From the NCBI RefSeq assembly GCF_016595415.1, contig NZ_JAENIO010000038.1, positions 1 to 41,146 of the forward strand: a stretch of DNA of 41,146 bases. Direction: 5' to 3'. Both the position numbers and the translations under genes were made by a program. Shown piece after piece: positions 1-41,146 of this stretch. This stretch comes from Roseibacillus ishigakijimensis (GTDB lineage: Bacteria; Verrucomicrobiota; Verrucomicrobiia; Verrucomicrobiales; Akkermansiaceae). Each line of letters starts with the position of its first letter. The first letter of the stretch is position 1. Below the pieces are notes generated by a model. The model was not told where the DNA came from and did no database searches. It worked only from the letters and a program-made list of their open reading frames with translations.

Positions 1-31
1 AAATGGTGGAGGCGAGGGGGATCGAACCCCT
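1..31. repeat. Left prophage attachment-site repeat
   Basis: These 31 bases recur identically as the last 31 bases of the window (41116-41146). Read on the minus strand they form a T-arm (AGGGG, TTCGATC loop, CCCCT), a 7-nt acceptor strand CGCCTCC, discriminator A and CCA. This is the classic att core made when a phage integrates into the 3' end of a tRNA or tmRNA gene. The T at acceptor position 70 with A73 fits alanine-type acceptors (tRNA-Ala or tmRNA), but the 5' half of the gene is outside the window. This copy is the displaced 3' fragment, because the RNA body would lie to the right of 41146. Confidence 0.93.
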
Positions 32-133
32 CTTTTCTTATTAGCCTATAATACACAGAATTACAGAAAAACTCACCATAAGCTATTTACTTCAATACCA
101 GAATTCTACCTTGGGGCAGAAAAGCAAGAAATT

Positions 134-173: not shown

Positions 174-755
174 TTACTCATCCAAATATCGGATGACTCC
201 GCCCACCGGAATGCCCACTCGCGCCTTTACGATCTTGAGGCTCGAAATCACCGCTGTTCCCGAAAAGGTCATTCCGCCGAAGGCAACGCAGTTTCGTGAG
301 GGAAAGCGCAATTCTTCCTTCCCAGTGTGCAAGACAGAATATGCCGCCTGCGCGCCGTGCATCTGCAGAACCATGGTGCGCGCCCATGGAAAGGGAATCT
401 CCCCTTCTGATTCCAAGCCCGCCATTTTGATGGTCGCGTGCGTTTCGGTCTGTCGCCAGAACATGCCTTTGAGCGGATTCTCTGCAGAGATTGTGAACTC
501 GGTCAGCTCTTTCAAGCGGAGCACGATGGCCCAGTCATGAACCGTCTGCCCTGCCGAATGGGGAACCGGAGGGGCCACCCGAAACAATTCTCTGACCCGG
601 AAGGAACCATCGGTGAGCTTGATGAGATTGTCTTCCACGACAACCCCCGAGACCTCCGTGATGGCATGTTGGGAAAGCCCGAGGTCAACGAGCCCATGAC
701 GACCCTCCAATCGCAACTGCGGCCAGGAATGTTCATTCTGGTAAAGTCTGCTCAT
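174..755 (-). CDS. Distal late-operon protein, unknown function
   Basis: A 193-residue protein, the last gene of the leftward late operon. Its start overlaps the stop of the large tail fibre-like gene as ATGA (752-755), so translation is probably coupled. I recognise no family. The sequence is soluble-looking, without a signal peptide or transmembrane segment, and is rich in alternating hydrophobic and polar residues, consistent with a beta-rich structural protein. Position after the fibre genes suggests a fibre-associated, chaperone or decoration role; this is inference from order only. The stop lies about 140 bp from the att core, so nothing else of the phage follows it. Confidence 0.75.
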   Translation of the reverse strand: MSRLYQNEHSWPQLRLEGRHGLVDLGLSQHAITEVSGVVVEDNLIKLTDGSFRVRELFRVAPPVPHSAGQTVHDWAIVLRLKELTEFTISAENPLKGMFWRQTETHATIKMAGLESEGEIPFPWARTMVLQMHGAQAAYSVLHTGKEELRFPSRNCVAFGGMTFSGTAVISSLKIVKARVGIPVGGVIRYLDE

Positions 756-3700
756 ACGGGAATGCTTTCGTCTTCGTTGAAAAGCGGGTCGCTTGCATCA
801 GGGTCGTTAATCGGCTGGTGATAACGGCGGGCGGGAATTTTTACGATGGCGGTCAAATCCGCAGCGGTCACAAACAAGGGAGAATCGGAAGCCATCATCA
901 CGATGTCGAAGACCTCCATGGGCTCGCTTCCGTTGCCAAGGCTCATTTGGATGGTGCTCCCCAATCCCACCTGATCGAGCGGCTCGGATTCATTGTAGCC
1001 ATCGACGTTGAGATTTCCGGACACATCGACGCCACCGTCACCTGAGACCGTGTAAGCGATAGTACTCAAGTCATGGTAGCGCTCGGAGCGGGAAATCACC
1101 CGCGCCCCGACTTCGGAAAATTCGTGCGTGTCGAGCACCGCATCCGCCGCCAAACAGGCGTAGGCGTAGAAACGCATGTCGAAGGTTTTTCGCCCCCCGG
1201 CCCGGGCGGTCTCGGTCAAAGCGCGATAGCCTTCGAACTCCACTTCCCCAGTGACCAGATTGAATTCCTCTTCGGCCGATTCCATCGCCTTGCGAATCAC
1301 CTCCGGGATTCTTGCCTTCAAGTCCTCGTTTTCACTCAGAATGTAGTATTGGCCCAAGAGAGCGCACCCCACACACTGATAGCTGGTGTCCTTGGCCCAG
1401 CGCTCGGGGTTCACCCCGTTCTCGGCCTGTTTGTTCATACCCATTTCCAACAGGACTTCGCCAGAGGCCTTGATGGCATCATCCTCGAGCAAATGACCGG
1501 CTAGCCAAATCCCCCAGCCGCGAAGGAAGAAGCGGTGAGTGAAGGGCTCCAAGGTGTCGGCATAAACCGAAGGGTCATCTTCCGGATTCCAGACGGCGGG
1601 GTCTCCCAGCCACTCGGCCAGAATGCGAATTTTCGGACCCCAATCGCTTGGCCGCAGATTGTAGTAGGTGTCCAGGTAGCTTTCCCACTGGGTGCCATGA
1701 ACCTCGTCGCTTTCCCGCAGGCATTGGAGAATATTGGCAGCCGCTTCCAAGAAAAAGGACGACGAATGAAGCATGTCTCCAGACTCGAATCCCCCGAAGT
1801 TCGGATCCTCTGGGTCCGTGACTTGGAACTGCCACCCCCAGTTGATGAACCGAATGGCCCGCTTGACGTTGCCGTCAGCATTCCGAGGGAACTCCCCCGT
1901 CTCGTCATCGGCGACATCGTCGCCCACTTCGGGAAGACCGAGCAGGCCCGCGATGGCGCAATCACGCGCCCAACGCTGGTTCTCGATGATGAGTCTACCG
2001 ATTCCCCGCTCTTCCCAATCTCGATTTCGCCCAATGGCCCCGCCCACATTGTAGTTGGACGTGCTACGCGGCCAATAGCGGGAGAGCGACCGGTTGAGAA
2101 GCGGATGGGCGAAAAGCTCGATCAAGCGGGTAGGTCGACTCGCGCTCACATGGTAAGAGTGCCGGGGAAAGGAAGTGGCCGTCCCCCATGCAGAGAATTC
2201 CAGACGGGTGTTGTAATCCCTTGCGGCCCGATAGGCGGAGACCTTGCCGGTCCCCACGCCGTCGATTTCGAAGAAGGTCTGCGCCTCTCCATTGAGAACA
2301 TCACGAACGGTGACGTGCGCATAAAAGTGGTCCGTGCTGGGCGGAGAAACTGGGCTCAATTTTGCAGGCGTTCCCGAGGTTTGCGCCGGAATCACCAGCT
2401 TCTGTTTCTGACGCTTCTCATCGAACTCCAACGTAGCGGGCGGATTGGAGAGGACTTGGATTTCCCGACCGGTGATATGGCATTTGAAGCTCTGCACCTG
2501 ATTGCCGGTTTGGAATTTGAAGAGCCCCTCCGGAATCATCGCGAACTCAACCTTTTCTCTCAGGTCCTTGCGGATGTATTGCAGCAGGTTGTGCCCCATG
2601 GCCTGCACGTCCGTCAATTCGAAGCCCGTGTCGTCGATATAGGATGTCGAATCATGGCTGGAGACCCCGCCCCCATATTTCTTTTGCCAGAAAAGCGAAA
2701 TTCTCCGAAAGGTGTCGGGATGAAGGGTATAGGGAAGGAACACAAACGCCGCGATGGTGATGTCCGCATGAGCCGAGCTGCCTGAGTTGTTTCCCAAGTA
2801 GACTTTCGTATCGCCCAAGTCAGGATCGTAGTCGATGGCATCGCCAGATTCGACGATGTCGTATGGGCCGGTATGCGTGCGCAGCTTGTTGCGTCGATCT
2901 GAGTAGGTCAGCCCTGCGGTTGTCCATTGGTTTGTCAGCACCTCGAAACGTCCGGAGAGCGAAAGGTCGTCGGGAGGCGTATTCGTCCAGCCGACCACCG
3001 CCCGAAACTTGTTGTCGCGAAAGGCCAGCTTCAGGTGGTCCTTGTAGAAAATGTAATAGTTGTTCCCGTCGTCTGGAATGCTATTGCGGCGGATGAAGGT
3101 CATGACCGTGAACCCATCAGCGGAGTTGACGTTGTAGTTCTCAGGGTCATCGGTGTTATCCCACTCTCCGACGATTCGGGTAGGATCTCCCAAGTCGTCC
3201 ACGGTGCGGATGGCGTCATGTCCTGCCGGAGTGGCTTCAATCGAGTTGTCTGCCAGCAGCCAGTGATCACGAGCCTCCTGGGCAATGGTTCCCCGGTCCA
3301 ACGGGCCAGTTTCCCCGCTGATGCCATCGCTACCCTCCCACCACGAGACGGGCTTGAATTCCCGGTTGGTGGAACGCTCGATGTCTCCAGCAAGGCCGAC
3401 CTTCTCCGAGGCGAGATAGAGGTTGAAACGTTTCGCCGCTTCTTTCTCCCAAGCCTCGGACACCTCGATTTCCAGAGATCGGGTTGTGAGAATGAGTTCT
3501 GCAAAGTAAGTCTCAGCCCCGGGCGTGGTGTCGCCGCCAATGTCGACAAACTCACCGGGAGAAGTGAAGCCCCCGGACACGCGCACGAAGCGGCCATTGA
3601 GCCGGAAGTAGGCCTGCGCCTCGGTCACGGTTTTCAGTTCCGGACGGTCATTCCGATCATGGGTGAGCTTCTCGGTTTTGACTGAACCTTTCAACACCAT

Positions 3701-4177
3701 CGGCACCAGGTTATTGACGGAACAATAAGGCTCAAAAGTGACCGCCGAAGGAAAGAACGCTCCTATCTCACAGGTGTCTCCAAGTTTGAGGCGATGATTG
3801 CCAGCGGCCTCAAAGTCCATCACATCCACGCCGGGCGCATGACCCGCCCCCGCGCCGAGCACAGCCCAAACCTGCTCGATGTCGTCGCCTAAGTGCACGG
3901 TGACCGCCGGATTGACCACCACGGGGCAGCCATTGATGAGACGAAGCTCTGGCGTTCCGATCTCGATGAACTCGGGCACAAAACCCGGGTCCACGAAAGC
4001 TTGATTGTAGAGCCGCTTCACCGTGGGCGATGTCTCGTTGGCCAAGGTGGCAATTTCGTCGCGAGAGAAACAATCCACCTCTCCGCTTTCCACAGTGCTC
4101 ACCCGACACAGCGGGCCCGCATAGGATTCAATAGCGCGCGAGAGAGAAAAGGCCGCCTGTTTTCCAAATCGCTTCAT
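752..4177 (-). CDS. Large tail fibre / receptor-binding protein with LamG-like and alpha-helical domains
   Basis: A 1141-residue protein, the longest in the window. Three parts are visible. The N-terminal third is beta-rich. Residues about 350-520 look like a concanavalin/LamG-type jelly roll (alternating strands, with a closing ...FLPYTLHPDTFRRISLFWQKKYG segment typical of such lectin folds). Residues about 690-1020 are helical and rich in Trp, Tyr and Ala-Leu repeats, resembling an alpha/alpha toroid as in polysaccharide lyases. Its position after the tail tip and lysis genes fits a host-surface-binding fibre, possibly with depolymerase activity. Enzymatic activity is inference; no catalytic residues were assigned. 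It overlaps the upstream gene by one base (TGATG). Confidence 0.8.
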   Translation of the reverse strand: MKRFGKQAAFSLSRAIESYAGPLCRVSTVESGEVDCFSRDEIATLANETSPTVKRLYNQAFVDPGFVPEFIEIGTPELRLINGCPVVVNPAVTVHLGDDIEQVWAVLGAGAGHAPGVDVMDFEAAGNHRLKLGDTCEIGAFFPSAVTFEPYCSVNNLVPMVLKGSVKTEKLTHDRNDRPELKTVTEAQAYFRLNGRFVRVSGGFTSPGEFVDIGGDTTPGAETYFAELILTTRSLEIEVSEAWEKEAAKRFNLYLASEKVGLAGDIERSTNREFKPVSWWEGSDGISGETGPLDRGTIAQEARDHWLLADNSIEATPAGHDAIRTVDDLGDPTRIVGEWDNTDDPENYNVNSADGFTVMTFIRRNSIPDDGNNYYIFYKDHLKLAFRDNKFRAVVGWTNTPPDDLSLSGRFEVLTNQWTTAGLTYSDRRNKLRTHTGPYDIVESGDAIDYDPDLGDTKVYLGNNSGSSAHADITIAAFVFLPYTLHPDTFRRISLFWQKKYGGGVSSHDSTSYIDDTGFELTDVQAMGHNLLQYIRKDLREKVEFAMIPEGLFKFQTGNQVQSFKCHITGREIQVLSNPPATLEFDEKRQKQKLVIPAQTSGTPAKLSPVSPPSTDHFYAHVTVRDVLNGEAQTFFEIDGVGTGKVSAYRAARDYNTRLEFSAWGTATSFPRHSYHVSASRPTRLIELFAHPLLNRSLSRYWPRSTSNYNVGGAIGRNRDWEERGIGRLIIENQRWARDCAIAGLLGLPEVGDDVADDETGEFPRNADGNVKRAIRFINWGWQFQVTDPEDPNFGGFESGDMLHSSSFFLEAAANILQCLRESDEVHGTQWESYLDTYYNLRPSDWGPKIRILAEWLGDPAVWNPEDDPSVYADTLEPFTHRFFLRGWGIWLAGHLLEDDAIKASGEVLLEMGMNKQAENGVNPERWAKDTSYQCVGCALLGQYYILSENEDLKARIPEVIRKAMESAEEEFNLVTGEVEFEGYRALTETARAGGRKTFDMRFYAYACLAADAVLDTHEFSEVGARVISRSERYHDLSTIAYTVSGDGGVDVSGNLNVDGYNESEPLDQVGLGSTIQMSLGNGSEPMEVFDIVMMASDSPLFVTAADLTAIVKIPARRYHQPINDPDASDPLFNEDESIPV

Positions 4178-5277
4178 CAGGAGGGCTCGGGCAAATATTC
4201 GTAGTAAACATAGACATCGACGCCCGCATCATTCCAGCTACTGGCGCTGACCTCCAATGTTTCGCCGTTGGAGTCATCAATCGGAAAGGCAGAATCCGGC
4301 AGAAGAATATCCTTGGCCCCCCGCCGTAGCTCGTAGCTATTGACCAAGCGCTTGCCCGATACCTTGGCGGTGATGGAAAGGCCATCGACGGCAATGTTAT
4401 CGAGCCCGATTCCCCCGGATTGAATGAGGACAATTCGCGTGATCAAGACGCCCTTGGGCAGGGTCCAGACGGTTTCCCCATCGGCATCGAACGAGGCGAT
4501 TTTCCGGGCGTTGTAGCCCAACGAAAAAGCGGTCGCCTCTTGGTCTCCCTCTTCGGTGAGTTCCAAGGCGTGAACTTCCACAGAAGCATTGGTGATGTTG
4601 CCTGAGTTGTCGGACTTCCCGCGCATCCGCATCAGGTCGGTGGTTCCCACCCGGAAGGTAAAGCCATGGAAGGTATTGGCATCCGCGTTCTCATTCATCG
4701 GAATCCAAGCGAGCAACTGCTCCCCGGAATTCGGGAAGAACTCATGCCCCACAGTCAATTGCCCGGTCTCCGAGAGAATGATGTAATTGGGCGGATAAGG
4801 GTCCGGGGCTGCCAAGGTAGGGGCCGCATGAGGACCCTTGCGAACCTCGATGACGTAGCTTCCGAAAGTCGTTTTATCACCGTCACCATCGGTATGGATG
4901 GCATAAATGAAATAGAGCTGGCTCGCTTTGGAGTCTGGCACCTCCAATGCCGCATCAGCCGCATCCCATGACGCTACAGCCAGAGAGCCCCCGGTTCTCC
5001 AGTCGCTCGCAGTGAAACCCCCATCGCAATCCCCCGAGTCGAGATTGAGAACCATGCGTTTCGGCTCCGCCTCGTCATCATTGGCCGCCCGCACTACGAG
5101 CTCGATGTTGCCAATATCGGACGCAGTCAGAAAACTGCCATCCTGCCTCTCGAGAGCGAACTCAATTTCGAGGTCATCCCCCCGCACCCAATAAGGCCGC
5201 TGGCCGGTGTTTGCGTCGAGAGCTGCACGTGATGAGTTCTTCTCCGAAAAAAGAATGCGACAGGTGTGGCGGGACAT
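4177..5277 (-). CDS. Baseplate/fibre-type structural protein
   Basis: A 366-residue protein whose first 130 residues have the style of phage baseplate upper-protein N-domains: a WVRGDDLEIEF-like strand, a DGSFL turn, then an immunoglobulin-like beta sheet containing FIYAIHTDGDGDKTTFGSYVIEV. The rest is also beta-rich and mentions no transmembrane or signal segments. It is followed without a gap by the large fibre gene, so it probably links or accompanies that fibre at the tail tip. The start is an ATG preceded by the late CTTTCTG motif (5285-5291) rather than a Shine-Dalgarno sequence. Exact family is not certain. Confidence 0.72.
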   Translation of the reverse strand: MSRHTCRILFSEKNSSRAALDANTGQRPYWVRGDDLEIEFALERQDGSFLTASDIGNIELVVRAANDDEAEPKRMVLNLDSGDCDGGFTASDWRTGGSLAVASWDAADAALEVPDSKASQLYFIYAIHTDGDGDKTTFGSYVIEVRKGPHAAPTLAAPDPYPPNYIILSETGQLTVGHEFFPNSGEQLLAWIPMNENADANTFHGFTFRVGTTDLMRMRGKSDNSGNITNASVEVHALELTEEGDQEATAFSLGYNARKIASFDADGETVWTLPKGVLITRIVLIQSGGIGLDNIAVDGLSITAKVSGKRLVNSYELRRGAKDILLPDSAFPIDDSNGETLEVSASSWNDAGVDVYVYYEYLPEPS

Positions 5278-5279
5278 GA

Positions 5280-5564
5280 CTACTCAGAAAGAGGAGAGGT
5301 GATGATGGTGCGCTTGGGGCACTCGGGCAGTTCACAGGGTAGTTGTTCACGCACTTTCAACTCGGCTACAGAAACTGTCAGGGAAGTGATCTTCTCATCC
5401 TGACTCGCCAGCTCCTTCTTCAATTCTCCCCGCTCCTTTCGGCATTCCGCAATGGCTTTCCGGGTCCAAAGGCAGAGGAGACCGAAGAGAAAAATCACCG
5501 CGAGGATGAGGAGCTTTTCCCACTCGGTGATTTCGAAATCTTGAACGTTGAAGGAGGCGATCAT
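5280..5564 (-). CDS. Small membrane protein of the lysis cassette (holin- or spanin-like)
   Basis: A 94-residue protein with one strong transmembrane segment (about residues 18-34, LLILAVIFLFGLLCLW) followed by a charged coiled coil (about 36-70). It overlaps the amidase gene as ATGA, which places it in the lysis cassette. Architecture resembles Rz-type inner-membrane spanins, but the positive residues directly after the membrane segment predict a cytoplasmic C-terminus, which fits a holin-type protein better. Which of the two it is cannot be settled from sequence alone. Two Cys residues near the C-terminus (PCELPEC) could form a disulfide if that end is periplasmic. Confidence 0.7.
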   Translation of the reverse strand: MIASFNVQDFEITEWEKLLILAVIFLFGLLCLWTRKAIAECRKERGELKKELASQDEKITSLTVSVAELKVREQLPCELPECPKRTIITSPLSE

Positions 5565-6271
5565 GAGGGGTCGAGAGTAGATAGTGCGCGCTTGATTGCC
5601 GTGAAATAGAGCATGGCCAGCCTGTTCGCTCCCAACCGGGCAACAATGGCGCGGTGTTCAGAGTTCGAGCAGTCCCAACACTCGGTGAGCACACAAGGAG
5701 CTTTGGCGGAGACGAGGCTTTTGCCGCCCCGGTCACTCCCCCGGCGCGATAAGAGGCGGCGTTGACCCGGGAAGACGGCCCCACACACATCGAGGAAGGC
5801 TTGCCCGACTTTCTCGCCAGCCTGTGAGTCCCTGAAAACGACCATCTCCACCCGACCCGCTCCGGCGAGCCAATTGAAATGCAACTCGATGACCATTTCA
5901 GGATTCCACGCATTCACCCGACGGTAGCATTCGAGGATTTCAGCCGAGTAGCTGGCGAGAGGTTGGCGACGGAAGACGTGGAGGTCAATTTCCTCATCAT
6001 CATCGGCGAGCTTGGCCATGAGGTCGGCGACTTCACCATTGAGTTGGTATTCGCTCGCGTTGACCGGACCCTCTGCGAAGGCTCCCGGCGCTTTTGAATT
6101 ATGCCCCACGACGACCGCAACTTTGCGAGCTCCCGGCGTGGATTTCGAAACGTTCGACTCCGGCACCAGAAACGCCCGCAGCATGTCAGCCGCTTTGCCA
6201 GGGAGGGAATTTTCCGAAAGCCAAATGGCTGTCCAAATGTCCCGCTTGGAGATGGTGACTGATTCGCTCAT
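5561..6271 (-). CDS. Endolysin, N-acetylmuramoyl-L-alanine amidase (Amidase_3 type)
   Basis: A 236-residue zinc amidase that cleaves the bond between muramic acid and the peptide stem of peptidoglycan, releasing virions. The catalytic set of the Amidase_3 family is visible: His57 in VVVGHNSK, Glu74 in NASEYQLN, His131 in VIELHFNW and Glu197 in VLTECWD. There is no signal peptide, so export would depend on a holin. It overlaps its neighbours by 4 nt on both sides (lipoprotein upstream, membrane protein downstream), forming a three-gene lysis cassette. The first 45 residues are an extra N-terminal helical region before the catalytic domain. Confidence 0.92.
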   Translation of the reverse strand: MSESVTISKRDIWTAIWLSENSLPGKAADMLRAFLVPESNVSKSTPGARKVAVVVGHNSKAPGAFAEGPVNASEYQLNGEVADLMAKLADDDEEIDLHVFRRQPLASYSAEILECYRRVNAWNPEMVIELHFNWLAGAGRVEMVVFRDSQAGEKVGQAFLDVCGAVFPGQRRLLSRRGSDRGGKSLVSAKAPCVLTECWDCSNSEHRAIVARLGANRLAMLYFTAIKRALSTLDPS

Positions 6272-6402
6272 TTCTGTGCGTTGATTTCGGCGATGCGGCG
6301 GGCGAGGTAGCCGCCGGTGTCTATGGTGCGGGCGATGTCCTCGGCAGTGGGGGTGCAGGAGGACAAGGCCAGCGCCAGGGCGATGGTTGCGATTCCCTTC
6401 AT
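6268..6402 (-). CDS. Tiny lipoprotein, candidate outer-membrane spanin (Rz1-like)
   Basis: A 44-residue protein with a lipoprotein signal peptide: MKGIATIALALALSSC, in which LSSC is a good lipobox and Cys16 the lipidated residue. The mature part would be only 29 residues. Size, lipobox and position immediately before the endolysin (ATGA overlap at 6268-6271) match o-spanins, which fuse the outer and inner membranes at the last step of lysis in Gram-negative hosts. A longer reading frame begins upstream, but the ATG at 6402, 4 nt after the preceding stop, is the only start that gives a signal peptide. Confidence 0.72.
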   Translation of the reverse strand: MKGIATIALALALSSCTPTAEDIARTIDTGGYLARRIAEINAQK

Positions 6403-6406
6403 GGCC

Positions 6407-6691
6407 TTACTTTGCGAGGGCTTCCTTGGCGGCGGTGACGGCATCGAGGATGGCCTTCGTGCTGCGGAGGCCCGCGCTGGCGAGCTCGCGGATTTCCTGC
6501 TCGTCGAGGTCAGCGAGTTCGTCGTCGATTTCATCAACATCGGCGATGGCATGCTTGACCGCTTCGAAGGGCTCGAAGGCGTGCACGAGGTCGGAAATAG
6601 CGAAGCCATCGGCGGCCGCTTCTTCAACGGCGTTGGCGGTTGATTCGACAGCTTCGAAGACTTCGAGGGTGTTGGTGATTCCTTTTTGCAT
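6407..6691 (-). CDS. Acidic helical protein, unknown function
   Basis: A 94-residue acidic, Ala- and Glu-rich protein predicted to be almost wholly helical (AVESTANAVEEAAADGFAI..., then DEIDDELADLDEQEIREL). No family recognised. It lies between the phage sigma factor and the lysis cassette. The start ATG is preceded by CTTTCTG (6697-6703 on the plus strand as CAGAAAG) with 5 nt spacing. The next gene begins 4 nt after its stop. A role in controlling lysis timing or late expression is possible but not supported by any motif. Confidence 0.75.
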   Translation of the reverse strand: MQKGITNTLEVFEAVESTANAVEEAAADGFAISDLVHAFEPFEAVKHAIADVDEIDDELADLDEQEIRELASAGLRSTKAILDAVTAAKEALAK

Positions 6692-6711: not shown

Positions 6712-7353
6712 TCAGGCGGCCGCGATGAGCTTGCGGGTCGCGCGGTAGAGCATGGGCAAGACGGACTTTTCCGCCAATCCGAGACGGGCGGCCATCTCCT
6801 CCGGCGTTTCGCCATCGGGCTCGAGGTAGACGGTGGTGACAATCTCCCTTTCGCGGGCCGTCAGCAACTTCAAGAGGCTGGCATCAAAGGCGAGGTGTTC
6901 CTGTTCCTCCTCTCCGCAGGCCGCTTCCTTGCGGGTCTCGTGACCATCAGCACTATCGGCCTCGTTGCCGAGGGGGGCATCGAGGCTGTCTTCGTCTTTC
7001 CACAGCTTGCGGGCCTCACGGTTCACGCCCTCGCGAATCCACAGATAAGCGTAGGTCACGAAGGGCGCGGGCTTCTTATAGCCGGGCTTGTGCATCGGTT
7101 TCCAGCGCTCGGCCGCTTTGCGAAGCCCCATCAGGCCAGACATGAAGAGGTCGTGTTTGTCGCACTCCTTGGCATTCATGCGCTCGACGTGCTGGACCAC
7201 GGCGCGCAGGTTGTGGAGCACGAGCTTTTCGAGCGCCTCCTCTCCCCGGCGCCCGCCCTCATCGCGCTGTCTGGCCAAAGCGCCTTCCTCCTGCCAATCC
7301 AAGACCGGATGCGTGGAAATGATGTCGTCCCAGTGTGAGAGCCCTCCCTTCAT
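6712..7353 (-). CDS. Phage-encoded sigma-70-family RNA polymerase sigma factor
   Basis: A 213-residue sigma factor. Residues about 42-115 match sigma region 2: VLHNLRAVVQHVERM, DLFMSGLMGLRKAAERW, then FVTYAYLWIREGVNREAR with the aromatic residues used in promoter melting. Residues about 159-211 match region 4, a helix-turn-helix (LTAREREIV... ETPEEMAARLGLAEKSVLPMLYRATRKL). It would direct host RNA polymerase to phage promoters, most likely late ones. The reading frame can be extended upstream to a TTG at 7440, but that runs into the tail-tip gene; the ATG at 7353 lies just after that gene's stop and has a CTTTTTG element 5 nt before it, resembling the late-gene motif. Confidence 0.87.
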   Translation of the reverse strand: MKGGLSHWDDIISTHPVLDWQEEGALARQRDEGGRRGEEALEKLVLHNLRAVVQHVERMNAKECDKHDLFMSGLMGLRKAAERWKPMHKPGYKKPAPFVTYAYLWIREGVNREARKLWKDEDSLDAPLGNEADSADGHETRKEAACGEEEQEHLAFDASLLKLLTAREREIVTTVYLEPDGETPEEMAARLGLAEKSVLPMLYRATRKLIAAA

Positions 7354-7369
7354 GCTTTCAAAAAGGAGC

Positions 7370-9259
7370 CTATTCCACCGCCGGGTAAACCCAAGGGCCA
7401 AACTCGCCAGCAGAGAGACGGGCGCGGAGGCGGACGACAACCATCACATGACTCCGGAAGTCATAAGGACCATCGGTCAGGCTCTCATCCTCGAAGTCGA
7501 ATGCAGCCGTTTCGACACCGGGCACGATTTCGCGGGTCTCGGAGATGGCGACAATCCCCCACGGCCCGGGAACGGGGGCGGGTTCGGGCGGGGGCTCTTC
7601 TCCCGGTTCGGGGGGCTCGGGCTCGGGATTGGTGTTCTGCTCGCGGCTCTCGACCCGCAGGGCAGCTTCAATCTCGATGGCTTCGAAGCTCGTGGCCGGG
7701 TCGGTCCAATTCAGGGAGAGACTACCGGCCCTGTGGTCGTCATCGGCAAAGATGGGAGTCAAGGCATAGGTGGCAGCGGTGGGAACGGTCTTGTCCCCCA
7801 CTCCCGGCAGATTGGTCTTCGCATTCTGCAGGTCGCCTTCCTGTGTGGCCGGGTTCCAGTCGTAGACCTCCGGGTCGTGGCGCTTGAGGGTCAGCTCAGC
7901 GGTGATGGGCATTCCCGGTAAAATCCGATGGTCGATCACGCGAAAAGTCTCGTCGAAGCCGAAGATATTGGAGACGAGGCGCACGTTGTCCCAGGGCTTC
8001 ACATCCAGGGCCACCACGAGGGGCACTTCCACAGTCATGGTTTCATCGCGGCGACTTTCCTGCAGGAGGATGTTCGCCACACGCTGGGCTTGGCGATGGT
8101 CGTTGACCATTTCCAAATCAAGTTCCAGCCAATTGACCCGCCCGCCATCCTCACCGATGGCCACAGCATCTTTCACGATGGGGAACTCGGTGGGTTCATC
8201 GTAGCTCTGCGGGCCGATGAAGGTTCCTTTGGCGGCGTTGGAGCGGTCGCGGTCGCTGCCGGAAAGGCTGCGGGTGAAAGCTCCCATGAAGTCGTCATCG
8301 GTGAGGGTGAGAACAGGCTCGGTCCACGCCCCAGCGTGGATGTAGTAGGTCCCGCCCCACTCCACCACCGCCCCCGCCATGGCATTGATGAAGGGGGTGA
8401 GCCACTTTTCCCAGTCGCCATCGAGCTCGATGTAGCCGTTGGCAGTGTATCGGGGCGACTCGCTGGCGTCTTTGTTAGTGACTCGCTCATCACAAATATC
8501 AGCGGCGGTGGCGAGGGCGGTTTGGTCGATGTTCTCGCGGGCGACTCCGAGGTAGCTTTCGAGGATGTCGGCGATGATGAGCGCGGGATTCATGGTCCAG
8601 CGAGTTTGACTGTCGCGGGGGTCATAGAGCTTTCTCCCGAAGACTTCCGCCGTCACGTTGGGGATGAAGCTGGTGAAGACACTGCTCTTATAATTGAGCC
8701 GCAAGTAAAGATAGGCCTGCCCGCGCGCCCGGTGGTCGTTAGTCCAATTGGTGTTTTCGCTCACGGCGTTTGAATCCGCGCTCTGGGTCGGGCTGCCCAA
8801 ATGCTTCTTGATGCGGCTTTGATGGGCCGCCGAACTGTTCTCATCACGATTGATCACATTGCGCAAGCCATTGACCACGGTGGAAAGGAAGCCGCCCCCG
8901 CCTGCGGGTTCGGGCAAGGTCACATCCCCCACCGCCTCGACGTTTTCGGCATTGTAGCGCACATCGCCGATGGCCTCGACCTCATGACCCGCGAGAACAA
9001 GCATCTCATGGAGGTAGTCATTATCACTGCCGGTGCCATTGATGTAAAAGAGGGTGCCGCCCTTGGTGGTGTAACCATAGACCACGTGCTGGGCGGTCTC
9101 CGCGCTGCGGACATTGCCGCTGCGGCCCTTGGCCTCTTCTCCCTTCTGACCCTTGGGCTTGGGCGCGAAAAAGTAGCTCACCGCCGAAGCCGCAAGCCCT
9201 CCAATCAAAGCCCCGATGACGATGGTTTCGAGGCCGGCCAGGATTAGCGGTTGGTCCAT
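7370..9259 (-). CDS. Tail-tip / central tail hub protein (gpJ-like)
   Basis: A 629-residue tail-tip protein. The N-terminus has a short hydrophobic Gly/Ala-rich segment (residues about 10-31) followed by basic residues, as in many siphophage tip proteins. Then come blocks typical of gpJ-type hubs: QHVVYGYTTKGGTLFYING, LHEMLVLAGHEVEAIGDV, TRWTMNPALIIADIL, and RRDETMTVEVPL, ending with a fibronectin-like region and a Pro/Glu-rich linker (EQNTNPEPEPPEPGEEPPPE). It sits after the NlpC/P60-like gene, as in gene transfer agent and lambdoid tails. It probably forms the tip that contacts the host and initiates DNA delivery. Overlaps the preceding gene by 16 nt. Confidence 0.87.
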   Translation of the reverse strand: MDQPLILAGLETIVIGALIGGLAASAVSYFFAPKPKGQKGEEAKGRSGNVRSAETAQHVVYGYTTKGGTLFYINGTGSDNDYLHEMLVLAGHEVEAIGDVRYNAENVEAVGDVTLPEPAGGGGFLSTVVNGLRNVINRDENSSAAHQSRIKKHLGSPTQSADSNAVSENTNWTNDHRARGQAYLYLRLNYKSSVFTSFIPNVTAEVFGRKLYDPRDSQTRWTMNPALIIADILESYLGVARENIDQTALATAADICDERVTNKDASESPRYTANGYIELDGDWEKWLTPFINAMAGAVVEWGGTYYIHAGAWTEPVLTLTDDDFMGAFTRSLSGSDRDRSNAAKGTFIGPQSYDEPTEFPIVKDAVAIGEDGGRVNWLELDLEMVNDHRQAQRVANILLQESRRDETMTVEVPLVVALDVKPWDNVRLVSNIFGFDETFRVIDHRILPGMPITAELTLKRHDPEVYDWNPATQEGDLQNAKTNLPGVGDKTVPTAATYALTPIFADDDHRAGSLSLNWTDPATSFEAIEIEAALRVESREQNTNPEPEPPEPGEEPPPEPAPVPGPWGIVAISETREIVPGVETAAFDFEDESLTDGPYDFRSHVMVVVRLRARLSAGEFGPWVYPAVE

Positions 9260-9660: not shown

Positions 9661-9720
9661 CGAGTCCAGAAAGCGCGAGAAGAGTTTATCCCTCTACCCC
9701 CCGACTTTAACGGCGAAAAC

Positions 9721-9890
9721 CCCGAGTTCGTATCCAAAAACCCCGAGTTCATCGGAATATCACCCGAGTTCGCCCAGAAAATGCCGTCTCGATCCGATAT
9801 CGTTGCGTCTCGATTGCTCTCCAATGGCGTCTCGATTTCGATTTCCGCCAAAAAGTGCCGTCTCGATCCTATTTTTGTTGCGTCTCGATT
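9721..9890. repeat. Helically phased short direct-repeat array in a 231-bp gap
   Basis: The gap between two tail genes (9661-9891) holds three copies of CCCGAGTTC starting at 9721, 9742 and 9763 (21-bp period), followed by five copies of GTCTCGAT starting at 9786, 9807, 9829, 9860 and 9882 (steps of 21, 22, 31 and 22 bp, i.e. two or three helical turns). There is also a higher-order repeat: the stretch around 9779-9814 resembles that around 9854-9889, offset by 75 bp. No open frame here looks like a protein. The rest of the late operon is tightly packed, so this gap stands out. Function unknown: protein-binding array, inserted host repeat or decayed sequence. Confidence 0.75.
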
Positions 9891-9891
9891 C

Positions 9892-28203: not shown

Positions 28204-28965
28204 TCAAACTCCCCCGATGGGAATGCGGAGCTTGGGATTGAGGTCGTAGGAAGCTTCGCGCACCCGGCGCTTGTTGTGGCTGGCGCCCTTGTCGATGCGC
28301 ACGATGTCGGTTCCCCACTTCTTGACCAAGAGGGCGAATTGTTCCTTCTCCCGCTCCAGATTCCGCATGTCGGCACACCCCCCGGGCAGGCCGTGCATGT
28401 CGTTGAAATAATGGACCATGTTGAAGCGCAGCAGGCGGCGGTAGCGGTTGAGGACTTGGAGGGTCATGTCGTAATCCTCCTTGAGCGGGATGCGCTCGTC
28501 ATAGCGCAGAGGGCAATCGATGAAGCCGGTGAAGGGACCACCCACGAAGGCCGCAAGGCTGAAGGGGTTGCTCTCGCGGTAGGCTTGCTTGTCGGCAGCG
28601 GCGGGGTTGAGCCCCCACAGGCGCACGCCCATTTCGCTGGCGAGGGCAAAGCCGTGCCCGATGAACTCGAGGGCCTCGGGCCCGGTCATGCGCCTGCGGG
28701 CGGTGCCATTCCACTGGCCAAGGTCGCGGAGGTCGTCATCGACCATGAGGAGCTGCTTGGTGGGCGTGTTGTCGAGGATCCAGTTGCGCACGCGGGAGGT
28801 GCTGCCTTGGGCGGAATCCGGACAGACCCAGACGGGAAGGTCGCGGGCGCGGTAGGCCTCGGCCTGACTCTCCGCCACGACATAGACGGTGGGCAAATAG
28901 CGGTGCGTGATGGCGCGATCGGCGCGCTTCCACGAGGGGCTGGCGATGGTGATGTCCGGGCTCAT
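28204..28965 (-). CDS. Glycosyltransferase of the TET-associated (TAGT) type
   Basis: A 253-residue GT-A-fold enzyme. Its core reads STSRVRNWILDN, then QLLMVDDDLRDLG with an Asp76-78 metal/sugar-nucleotide motif, VGGPFTGFIDCPLRYDERIPLKEDYDMTLQ with Glu163-Asp164, and MVHYFNDMHGLPGGCADMR. This matches phage TAGT-type enzymes predicted to glycosylate hypermodified DNA bases. It overlaps a ParB-like gene as ATGA; ParB-like domains accompany these transferases in other phages. No TET/JBP dioxygenase or nucleotide-modifying enzyme is visible in the window, so the acceptor base is unknown. It could modify phage DNA against host restriction. Confidence 0.72.
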   Translation of the reverse strand: MSPDITIASPSWKRADRAITHRYLPTVYVVAESQAEAYRARDLPVWVCPDSAQGSTSRVRNWILDNTPTKQLLMVDDDLRDLGQWNGTARRRMTGPEALEFIGHGFALASEMGVRLWGLNPAAADKQAYRESNPFSLAAFVGGPFTGFIDCPLRYDERIPLKEDYDMTLQVLNRYRRLLRFNMVHYFNDMHGLPGGCADMRNLEREKEQFALLVKKWGTDIVRIDKGASHNKRRVREASYDLNPKLRIPIGGV

Positions 28966-29582
28966 GCGGTGATGCGATTGAGGTAGGCGGCACCATTGAC
29001 CACGCGCCCGACTCCGCGGGTGTGGGGCTTGCCATTCTGCCGGCGGTTCATCACGGGCTGAAGCTCGAAGTGAGTCTGTGCCTGGAGCCAGTCGACATCA
29101 TTGTCGAAGACGAGCACGATGTAATTGTTGGACTCGTTGAGGACCTCCGAGAAGGCAACTTCGGGCTCGGTATCGGCGGGGTCGTCGCCTTCTTCCTCCG
29201 CGAAGAATCCGGCCAGCTCCACGTCATCGAGTTCCGCGAGGAGCCCCTTCACTCCCGCCTCATCAAGGTCGGCCAACTGGGCCAGCTGGTTGTCAGCGAG
29301 CAGGTCGGCAACCTCATCCTCGGGGCTGGCGTAGTCTTGGAAATCAACGGGCACCTCCGCCCAGCCCTGCAGCTTAGCCACCGCGAGGGCACCATGACCG
29401 GCGGTGATGCAGCCGGAGAGATTGGAGACCCGAATCGGCCGGCGCCAGCCCTGGTGCGCGATGATTTTAGCGAACAGCTCCAACTGCTCGCGCGGGTGCT
29501 GGTTGGGGTTTTTCGGATGGGGCTTCAGCTCCCCCACCGCGACCAAGCGGGTGTAGCTGCAACGAATCTCGGGTTCACTCAT
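28962..29582 (-). CDS. ParB-like nuclease-domain protein
   Basis: A 206-residue protein. Residues about 10-100 are a ParB/sulfiredoxin-fold domain: VGELKPHPKNPNQHPREQLE, IIAHQGWRRPIRVS, CITAGHGALAVAKLQGW, VPVDFQDYASPEDEVADLLADNQLAQL. The last 60 residues (NYIVLVFDNDVDWLQAQTHFELQ, RRQNGKPHTRGVGRVVNGAAYL) are an added domain. Stand-alone phage ParB proteins of this style are found next to DNA methylases and hypermodification enzymes, so it probably works with the downstream glycosyltransferase. It is not part of a partition system: no ParA is present. CTTTCTG is 5 nt before the ATG. The 178-bp gap upstream (29583-29760) holds short hairpins only. Confidence 0.78.
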   Translation of the reverse strand: MSEPEIRCSYTRLVAVGELKPHPKNPNQHPREQLELFAKIIAHQGWRRPIRVSNLSGCITAGHGALAVAKLQGWAEVPVDFQDYASPEDEVADLLADNQLAQLADLDEAGVKGLLAELDDVELAGFFAEEEGDDPADTEPEVAFSEVLNESNNYIVLVFDNDVDWLQAQTHFELQPVMNRRQNGKPHTRGVGRVVNGAAYLNRITA

Positions 29583-41115: not shown

Positions 41116-41146
41116 AAATGGTGGAGGCGAGGGGGATCGAACCCCT
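41116..41146. repeat. Right prophage attachment-site repeat (3' end of the tRNA-like gene)
   Basis: Identical to bases 1-31. On the minus strand it is the 3' end (T-arm, acceptor strand, ACCA) of the tRNA or tmRNA gene, whose body continues beyond the end of the window. Integration keeps this gene intact by supplying the same 3' sequence. Confidence 0.93.

Follow-up and report, generated by a model that had tools for sequence, protein, structure and literature searches.

A short sigma-70-family gene in a prophage of Roseibacillus ishigakijimensis recurs in four diverged relatives of that phage, and we propose with moderate confidence, from its sequence and by analogy with characterized phages, that it encodes a lineage-specific small phage late sigma factor that would be self-amplifying here. 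Sigma homology, gene context, retention in five diverged phages and placement outside the compared host sigmas are directly established, and the late role is the reading that we would put upon them. The gene lies in a stretch of 41,146 nucleotides, hereafter the window, which is the complete contig C124 of a 4.14-Mb draft genome.

The original prediction placed a sigma-70 factor at 6712–7353, and these coordinates proved exact: a 213-aa protein is encoded on the minus strand from an ATG at 7353 to a stop at 6712. An alternative start, TTG 7440, would give 242 aa; we prefer ATG 7353 because it stands 16 nt after the stop codon of the fibre gene and has a one-mismatch copy of a start element discussed below, CTTTTTG (7359–7365, minus strand), 5 nt ahead of it. 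The whole protein passes NCBIfam TIGR02937 with 60.2 bits against a cut-off of 42.9 (E 1.8e-16) and matches PHROG_351, ‘RNA polymerase sigma factor’ (E 7.9e-14; a family given without a cut-off), where aa 22–209 align with columns 489–722 of the 928-column profile. Its best sequence match in the PDB is SigA1 (9dvs, 3.5e-9). Sigma region 2 (aa 44–118; 7000–7224, minus strand) matches Pfam Sigma70_r2 with E 3.3e-5 and 24.0 bits, exactly the cut-off of 24, and the region 4 helix-turn-helix (aa 160–209; 6727–6876, minus strand) matches Sigma70_r4_2 with E 0.0013 and 18.8 bits, below the cut-off of 25.7, in the expected place and order. Judged by these profiles, the sigma homology of 6712–7353 is beyond chance.

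The protein begins with a stretch resembling the end of region 1.2, followed by region 2, a linker of ~40 residues and region 4, and regions 1.1 and 3 are missing. An AlphaFold2 model, weak at a pLDDT of 64.7, has helices for both domains, those of region 4 falling within 158–212, and a low-confidence linker at 128–156. The top Foldseek matches of this model were sigma factors, none of them at or below 1e-3; region 4 alone was matched to region 4 of the Thermus aquaticus sigma (1ku3) at an rmsd of 1.9 Å (TMt 0.73, E 0.73). An architecture of region 2 plus region 4 fits ECF (group 4) sigmas, and the N-terminal stretch of the window protein aligns with the region before 2.1 of longer sigmas; we have filed the protein as sigma-70 family only, not as ECF. 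Among its neighbours, a Pfam and PHROGs scan named no gene as an anti-sigma.

The location foreseen for the gene, in the late region between tail-tip and lysis genes, is right and unusual. Directly upstream is a J-like tail fibre/tip gene (7370–9259; PHROG_5616 2e-82, PHROG_31 5.9e-44), and downstream, likewise on the minus strand, follow a 94-aa acidic protein without a Pfam family that has an exact CTTTCTG start element (6407–6691); a 44-aa ORF whose translation is lipoprotein-like and which may be spanin-like (6268–6402); the endolysin, an N-acetylmuramoyl-L-alanine amidase (5561–6271; PHROG_435, Pfam Amidase_3 above cut-off); and a second 94-aa protein without a Pfam family (5280–5564), whose translation has one hydrophobic stretch and then a charged part, and which could be an i-spanin or holin-like. 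After the lysis cassette come a 366-aa protein (4177–5277) and an 1141-aa protein (752–4177), neither with a Pfam or PHROG match; homologues of the former follow the fibre gene in distant prophages.

The gene content of the window is siphovirus-like, with an integrase, CI-like repressor, recombination genes, terminase, portal, capsid, tape measure, distal tail protein and J-like fibre. A 31-bp att core forms a terminal direct repeat, at 1–31 (left end) and 41116–41146 (right end), and also occurs at C105:65–95 and C133:65–95 in the same genome, the C105 copy ending a tmRNA gene. The last 95 bases of C133 (turned) are window positions 1–95, and the first 95 bases of C105 are the window's last 95, with the C105 junction at the end of the tmRNA gene; each overlap comprises the core and 64 phage bases. 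Because the att core matches and the contigs overlap by these 95 bases, the prophage is therefore integrated in the host ssrA (tmRNA) gene. The phage contig has no host sequence, while C105 and C133 each run 64 nt into the phage, and this pattern of assembly breaks, as distinct from read data, suggests that the excised circular (end-to-end) phage junction is also among the reads.

Two other features of the window may be recorded here. A gap between tail genes (9661–9891) holds about five copies of CGTCTCGATY and three to four copies resembling CCCCGAGTTC, spaced mostly 21–31 apart, an array that reads as iteron- or centromere-like. A ParB-like gene (28962–29582), which also matches a DNA methyltransferase family, adjoins a match to PHROG_842, beta-glucosyl-HMC-alpha-glucosyltransferase (28204–28965; 2.8e-15), a pairing that may point to DNA modification.

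Four related but diverged phages (loci L100, L203, L204 and L201) also carry a short sigma-70-like ORF without region 3, of 167–202 aa. Their identities to the window phage are 46–47% for TerL (two compared) and 36–41% for the fibre; tail genes are common to the window phage and all four, as are head genes where these were read. All five sigmas match Sigma70_r2, four at or above the cut-off and that of L204 below it at 22.9 bits, and all five match PHROG_351, a broad family from which function is not deducible by membership. In a genome of the same family, G671, the phage (L100) is split over two contigs, with identities to the window of 47% for TerL, 43% for the portal and 36% for the fibre; its 202-aa sigma, 26% identical to that of the window, lies directly after the fibre gene and reaches 42.1 bits with TIGR02937, just under the cut-off of 42.9. 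The other three are IMG/VR phages with fibres at 37–41%, two with the sigma at the end of the tail module and one with it after helicase and primase. The G762 gene comes after fibre, collagen-like and glycosyltransferase genes and before recombination/replication genes, and the G763 gene is the last of the tail module, next to an integrase-like match on the opposite strand. The G761 gene (contig of 40.6 kb) follows Sak4, exonuclease, SSB, helicase and primase genes and is followed by an integrase gene on the other strand and then by a Neck1-like gene; if that contig were circular, terminase, portal and capsid would come next. Late activators usually sit in such a position, after replication genes and before head genes. 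Collagen-like fibres are followed by similar glycosyltransferase-like genes in L203 (7238–7867, PHROG_1962) and L204 (9001–9627, by eye).

The sigma was retained in five of five phages, the window's included, that have a fibre at 36% or more, other shared tail genes and enough sequence. Another IMG/VR contig, G764, has identities to the window proteins nearly like those of G763, and the ~1.7 kb after its fibre match, where the contig ends, contain no sigma. Neither tblastn nor the profile found a sigma in the stretches read of three distant Akkermansiaceae prophages with fibre homologues (G021, G165 and G009); the G021 fibre (36–39%) stands alone, with no other head or tail homologues within the 40 kb read and no sigma nearby. 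The sigma profile was also empty in the stretches read of four capsid relatives within the family (G685, G261, G142 and G178). Searches of viral contigs with the sigma, fibre, Dit or capsid alone confirmed no close relative, and a TerL search returned 17 viral loci at 31–38%, on which the sigma profile found none; TIGR02937 gave 14.3 bits, 12.4 bits and nothing on three of these records. Further fibre matches were in G678 and in G671:C697. Across 80 genome-contig fibre loci (63 of which extend at least 3 kb past the fibre match), the profile hit only L110, on the same contig as L100, and L189; across the best 80 of 561 viral fibre loci (35 extending at least 3 kb), L209 and L210 were the sole hits, and these are the already known G762 and G763; many fibre-bearing loci without a sigma are short stretches. 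The L189 hit is a 748-aa frame that we took for a chromosomal RpoD. On these comparisons the sigma appears to belong to this phage lineage, with a varying place. The gene is not always in the late region: relatives have it elsewhere.

We placed the protein in a tree with 46 sigmas in all (38 from bacteria, 3 from cyanophages and the 5 phage proteins described above; the sigma ORFs of L046, the duplicate L023, L047 and L048 were left out), in which RpoD and RpoH-like labels on bacterial rows were assigned by length and resemblance, with no profiling. The five phage sigmas form one side of a branch (90/78) in this tree, which has long branches of which the tool warns. They stand apart from the group of the host 623-aa sigma (99/98; RpoD by length), from that of the host 301-aa sigma (96/98; RpoH-like by length) and from the cyanophage sigmas, so that the suggested phylogenetic check put the window sigma outside both host groups. 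Nor did a close identity to a host sigma gene emerge: the best matches within its own genome are at 33–37% and cover region 2, and among 387 genomes of the phylum there was no close relative, the best match being 40% over aa 17–113 only (E 1.7e-8). When 384 genomes of the class were scanned with an alignment of the five phage sigmas, 344 matched at 1e-12; the window scored 244, and among the matches listed none but the window exceeded 61 bits. These matches have frames of at least 288 aa and, by score and frame length, are taken for housekeeping sigmas.

Given its place in the tree, the window sigma gives no impression of being a host gene in decay. That it is a recently acquired host sigma carried as cargo, with no role for the phage, we consider highly improbable: host genomes do contain several sigma genes, and the 33–37% matches over region 2 lie in the host's own genome, but nothing in the 387 phylum genomes comes close, the gene is present in five diverged phages and it falls outside the host groups in the tree. 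As for the five among themselves, leave-one-out profiles ranked only L203 and L204 first; four bacterial sigmas outranked that of the window (5 of 44), L100 ranked 38 and L201 17, and common descent was not confirmed for these three. A single origin of the five is nevertheless likely, because two of the phages have the gene after the fibre and all five lack region 3.

Strongly diverged as they are, all five phage sigmas conserve the region 2.2 D and the FxxYAxxx(I/V)R pattern of region 2.3. The Q-E pair after the region 2.2 D, which we take to be core-contact positions typical of sigma-70 but not family-defining, is M-S in the window sigma, and the Q is present in none of the five. Of the region 2.3 Trp pair, half is conserved in the window sigma and none in the other four. 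With an altered Q-E pair and a Trp pair that has largely disappeared, core contact and promoter choice probably differ from those of the host sigma. The same losses, with the strong divergence in the tree, could point to a decoy or takeover factor that does not initiate transcription and instead binds core polymerase or a host regulator and blocks host transcription. We regard this as unlikely: both DNA-contacting regions persist, with the region 4 helix-turn-helix conserved, and an inhibitor would be expected among the early genes.

The position of the gene in the window, directly upstream of the lysis cassette, invites the reading that it mainly controls this adjoining cassette and times lysis, and in L100 the next reading frame also opens, by eye, with a signal-peptide-like stretch. 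However, the neighbours of the sigma in G761, G762 and G763 are replication, integrase or glycosyltransferase-like genes, and simple scans found no promoter specific to the lysis cassette, which leaves a role chiefly in lysis timing quite unlikely. Consensus promoters between 5000 and 12000 numbered 3, against 1.5 expected. A promoter search had been suggested along with the original prediction; a coarse two-box search of 15 gaps between window genes, one of them containing the 44-aa ORF, gave nothing above 8 shuffles. Boosting of its own operon by the sigma, which had also been suggested, is possible.

The sigma had further been put forward as the reader of the CTTTCTG element. This heptamer occurs 16 times in the window, always on the minus, coding strand (both strands together would be expected to hold 7.7; a count of 16 is reached in 1 of 100 shuffles). 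Thirteen exact sites are within 2–8 nt of an ATG, and 12 of these lie 4–7 nt before the ATG of a gene; these 12 precede late starts (ATG 29582, 25505, 23148, 22346, 20690, 18757, 15531, 14106, 11101, 9660, 6691 and 5277; span 5285–29594, minus strand). With genes listed by eye, 12 exact and 3 one-mismatch elements, that of the sigma included, were found at 33 late starts and none at 12 early starts; an automatic gene caller, which missed starts, counted the element at 9 of 22 late genes. Neither an exact copy nor one with a single mismatch stands before nine late genes whose start overlaps the end of the preceding gene by 1–17 bases. SD-like pentamers stand before 5 of 12 early starts versus 2 of 33 late ones, and early and late genes thus seem, from their sequences, to differ in start signals. 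Within 55 nt upstream of CTTTCTG there is no second conserved box, and the heptamer alone is conserved. It precedes no start in 98 kb of other contigs of the own host, 78 kb of two genomes of the same genus and 123 kb of related prophages, and each locus read in the sigma-bearing relatives has it ahead of an ATG at most once. The own genome yielded no 16S; in three relatives the 16S tail is CCTCCTTTCTA, and none of the three has CAGAAAG, to which the element is complementary, in the 1540 bases up to the tail. Base composition before 120 ORFs of the host genus was flat, with start calls too rough to use.

Because its spacing is fixed to the ATG and there is no upstream box, CTTTCTG looks like a start-associated element and not a two-box promoter, more likely a start-codon-linked, translation-type signal of late genes. 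The Start-Associated Sequences of cluster K mycobacteriophages resemble it in being a short asymmetric repeat just before start codons, mostly in one orientation; as described there they are 13 bp (GGGATAGGAGCCC), whereas the window element is 7 bp, pyrimidine-rich and before late genes only (PMC3203893).

The sigma could alternatively read CTTTCTG as a single-box, -10-like promoter before each late gene, giving near-leaderless mRNAs. The strand bias of all 16 copies, their restriction to late starts 4–7 nt ahead of the ATG, their absence before starts in the host DNA read and the near copy at the sigma's own ATG would suit this, and phiEco32 is reported to have single-box sigma promoters with start sites 6–8 bp downstream (PMC8948821). 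Yet the spacing is tied to the start codon, the sigma-bearing relatives have 0 or 1 match per locus read, and the elements stand at cistron junctions inside an apparently continuous gene run. At the four exact sites with a spacing of 4, a start 6–8 bp downstream would land in or after the ATG. No second box accompanies the heptamer though region 4 is present, and the single-box sigma of phiEco32 is described as being without region 4 homology (PMC8948821). We therefore judge this reading improbable, and the proposal that the sigma is the reader of CTTTCTG was not upheld. Its fuller form, in which one sigma and a single 7-base box would give a separate near-leaderless mRNA for each of a dozen late cistrons, with a transcription factor replacing ribosome-binding sites as the late switch, we rate a shade lower still. 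The window sigma does not need CTTTCTG as its site, and with the two treated apart the element can be studied as a translation signal that marks late and not early genes.

Small phage sigmas for late genes are known from T4, a large lytic myovirus whose gp55 is coupled to the sliding clamp, and phiEco32 and 7-11 are lytic podoviruses. The sigmas of the latter two, gp36 and gp47, which are 15% identical, are reported to direct late transcription at different promoters (PMC8948821). The likeness to our case is in a phage sigma found throughout a phage group and strongly diverged within it, with late transcription in theirs; the difference is that their promoters were mapped, while the window sigma is known from sequence and its gene lies inside the late tail/lysis region of a prophage. 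The original prediction held that siphophages of this size rarely carry a sigma factor, which is only partly right: phage records of 30–41 kb from the cyanophages S-CBS1, S-CBS3, S-LBS1 and KBS-S-2A contain a sigma gene, and S-LBS1, S-CBS1 and S-CBS3 appear in the literature as cyanosiphoviruses carrying an rpoD sigma factor gene (PMC6157547). For S-CBS3 and S-LBS1, the sigma gene is close to where the gene order switches to lysozyme genes on the opposite strand. The S-CBS3, KBS-S-2A and S-LBS1 proteins have 299–317 aa and are annotated as group 2 or RpoD-like, whereas the window sigma has 213 aa, no region 3 and not the ~300-aa form with regions 2, 3 and 4, and is separate in the tree; it does not belong with the RpoD-like cyanophage proteins. 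The kind of gene is thus already known, as are siphoviruses with a sigma, and the window sigma is a diverged new member. A narrow search of the literature by title turned up no publication on sigma factors of Verrucomicrobiota phages.

We favour the late sigma reading because of the analogy with phiEco32 and 7-11, the presence of the gene in five phages and its position in G761; the altered core-contact positions count against it, as does the variable gene position, by which a role tied to the late region is not uniform. The leave-one-out ranks, the long branches of the tree, the weak structure model and the two-box search weigh on the same side. During lytic growth the sigma would bind host core RNA polymerase and guide it to the late (or middle/late) promoters of the phage. 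Host polymerase or read-through would supply the first late transcripts, after which the sigma would amplify transcription of its own gene and of the adjoining downstream lysis cassette, as a feedback and not as the first trigger. This self-amplification is proposed because the sigma gene sits inside the late region. For this phage group, a sigma found in five phages at differing places in the genome would be a testable late regulator, and it may be a further example, after phiEco32 and 7-11, of a phage lineage with a quickly diverging sigma factor.
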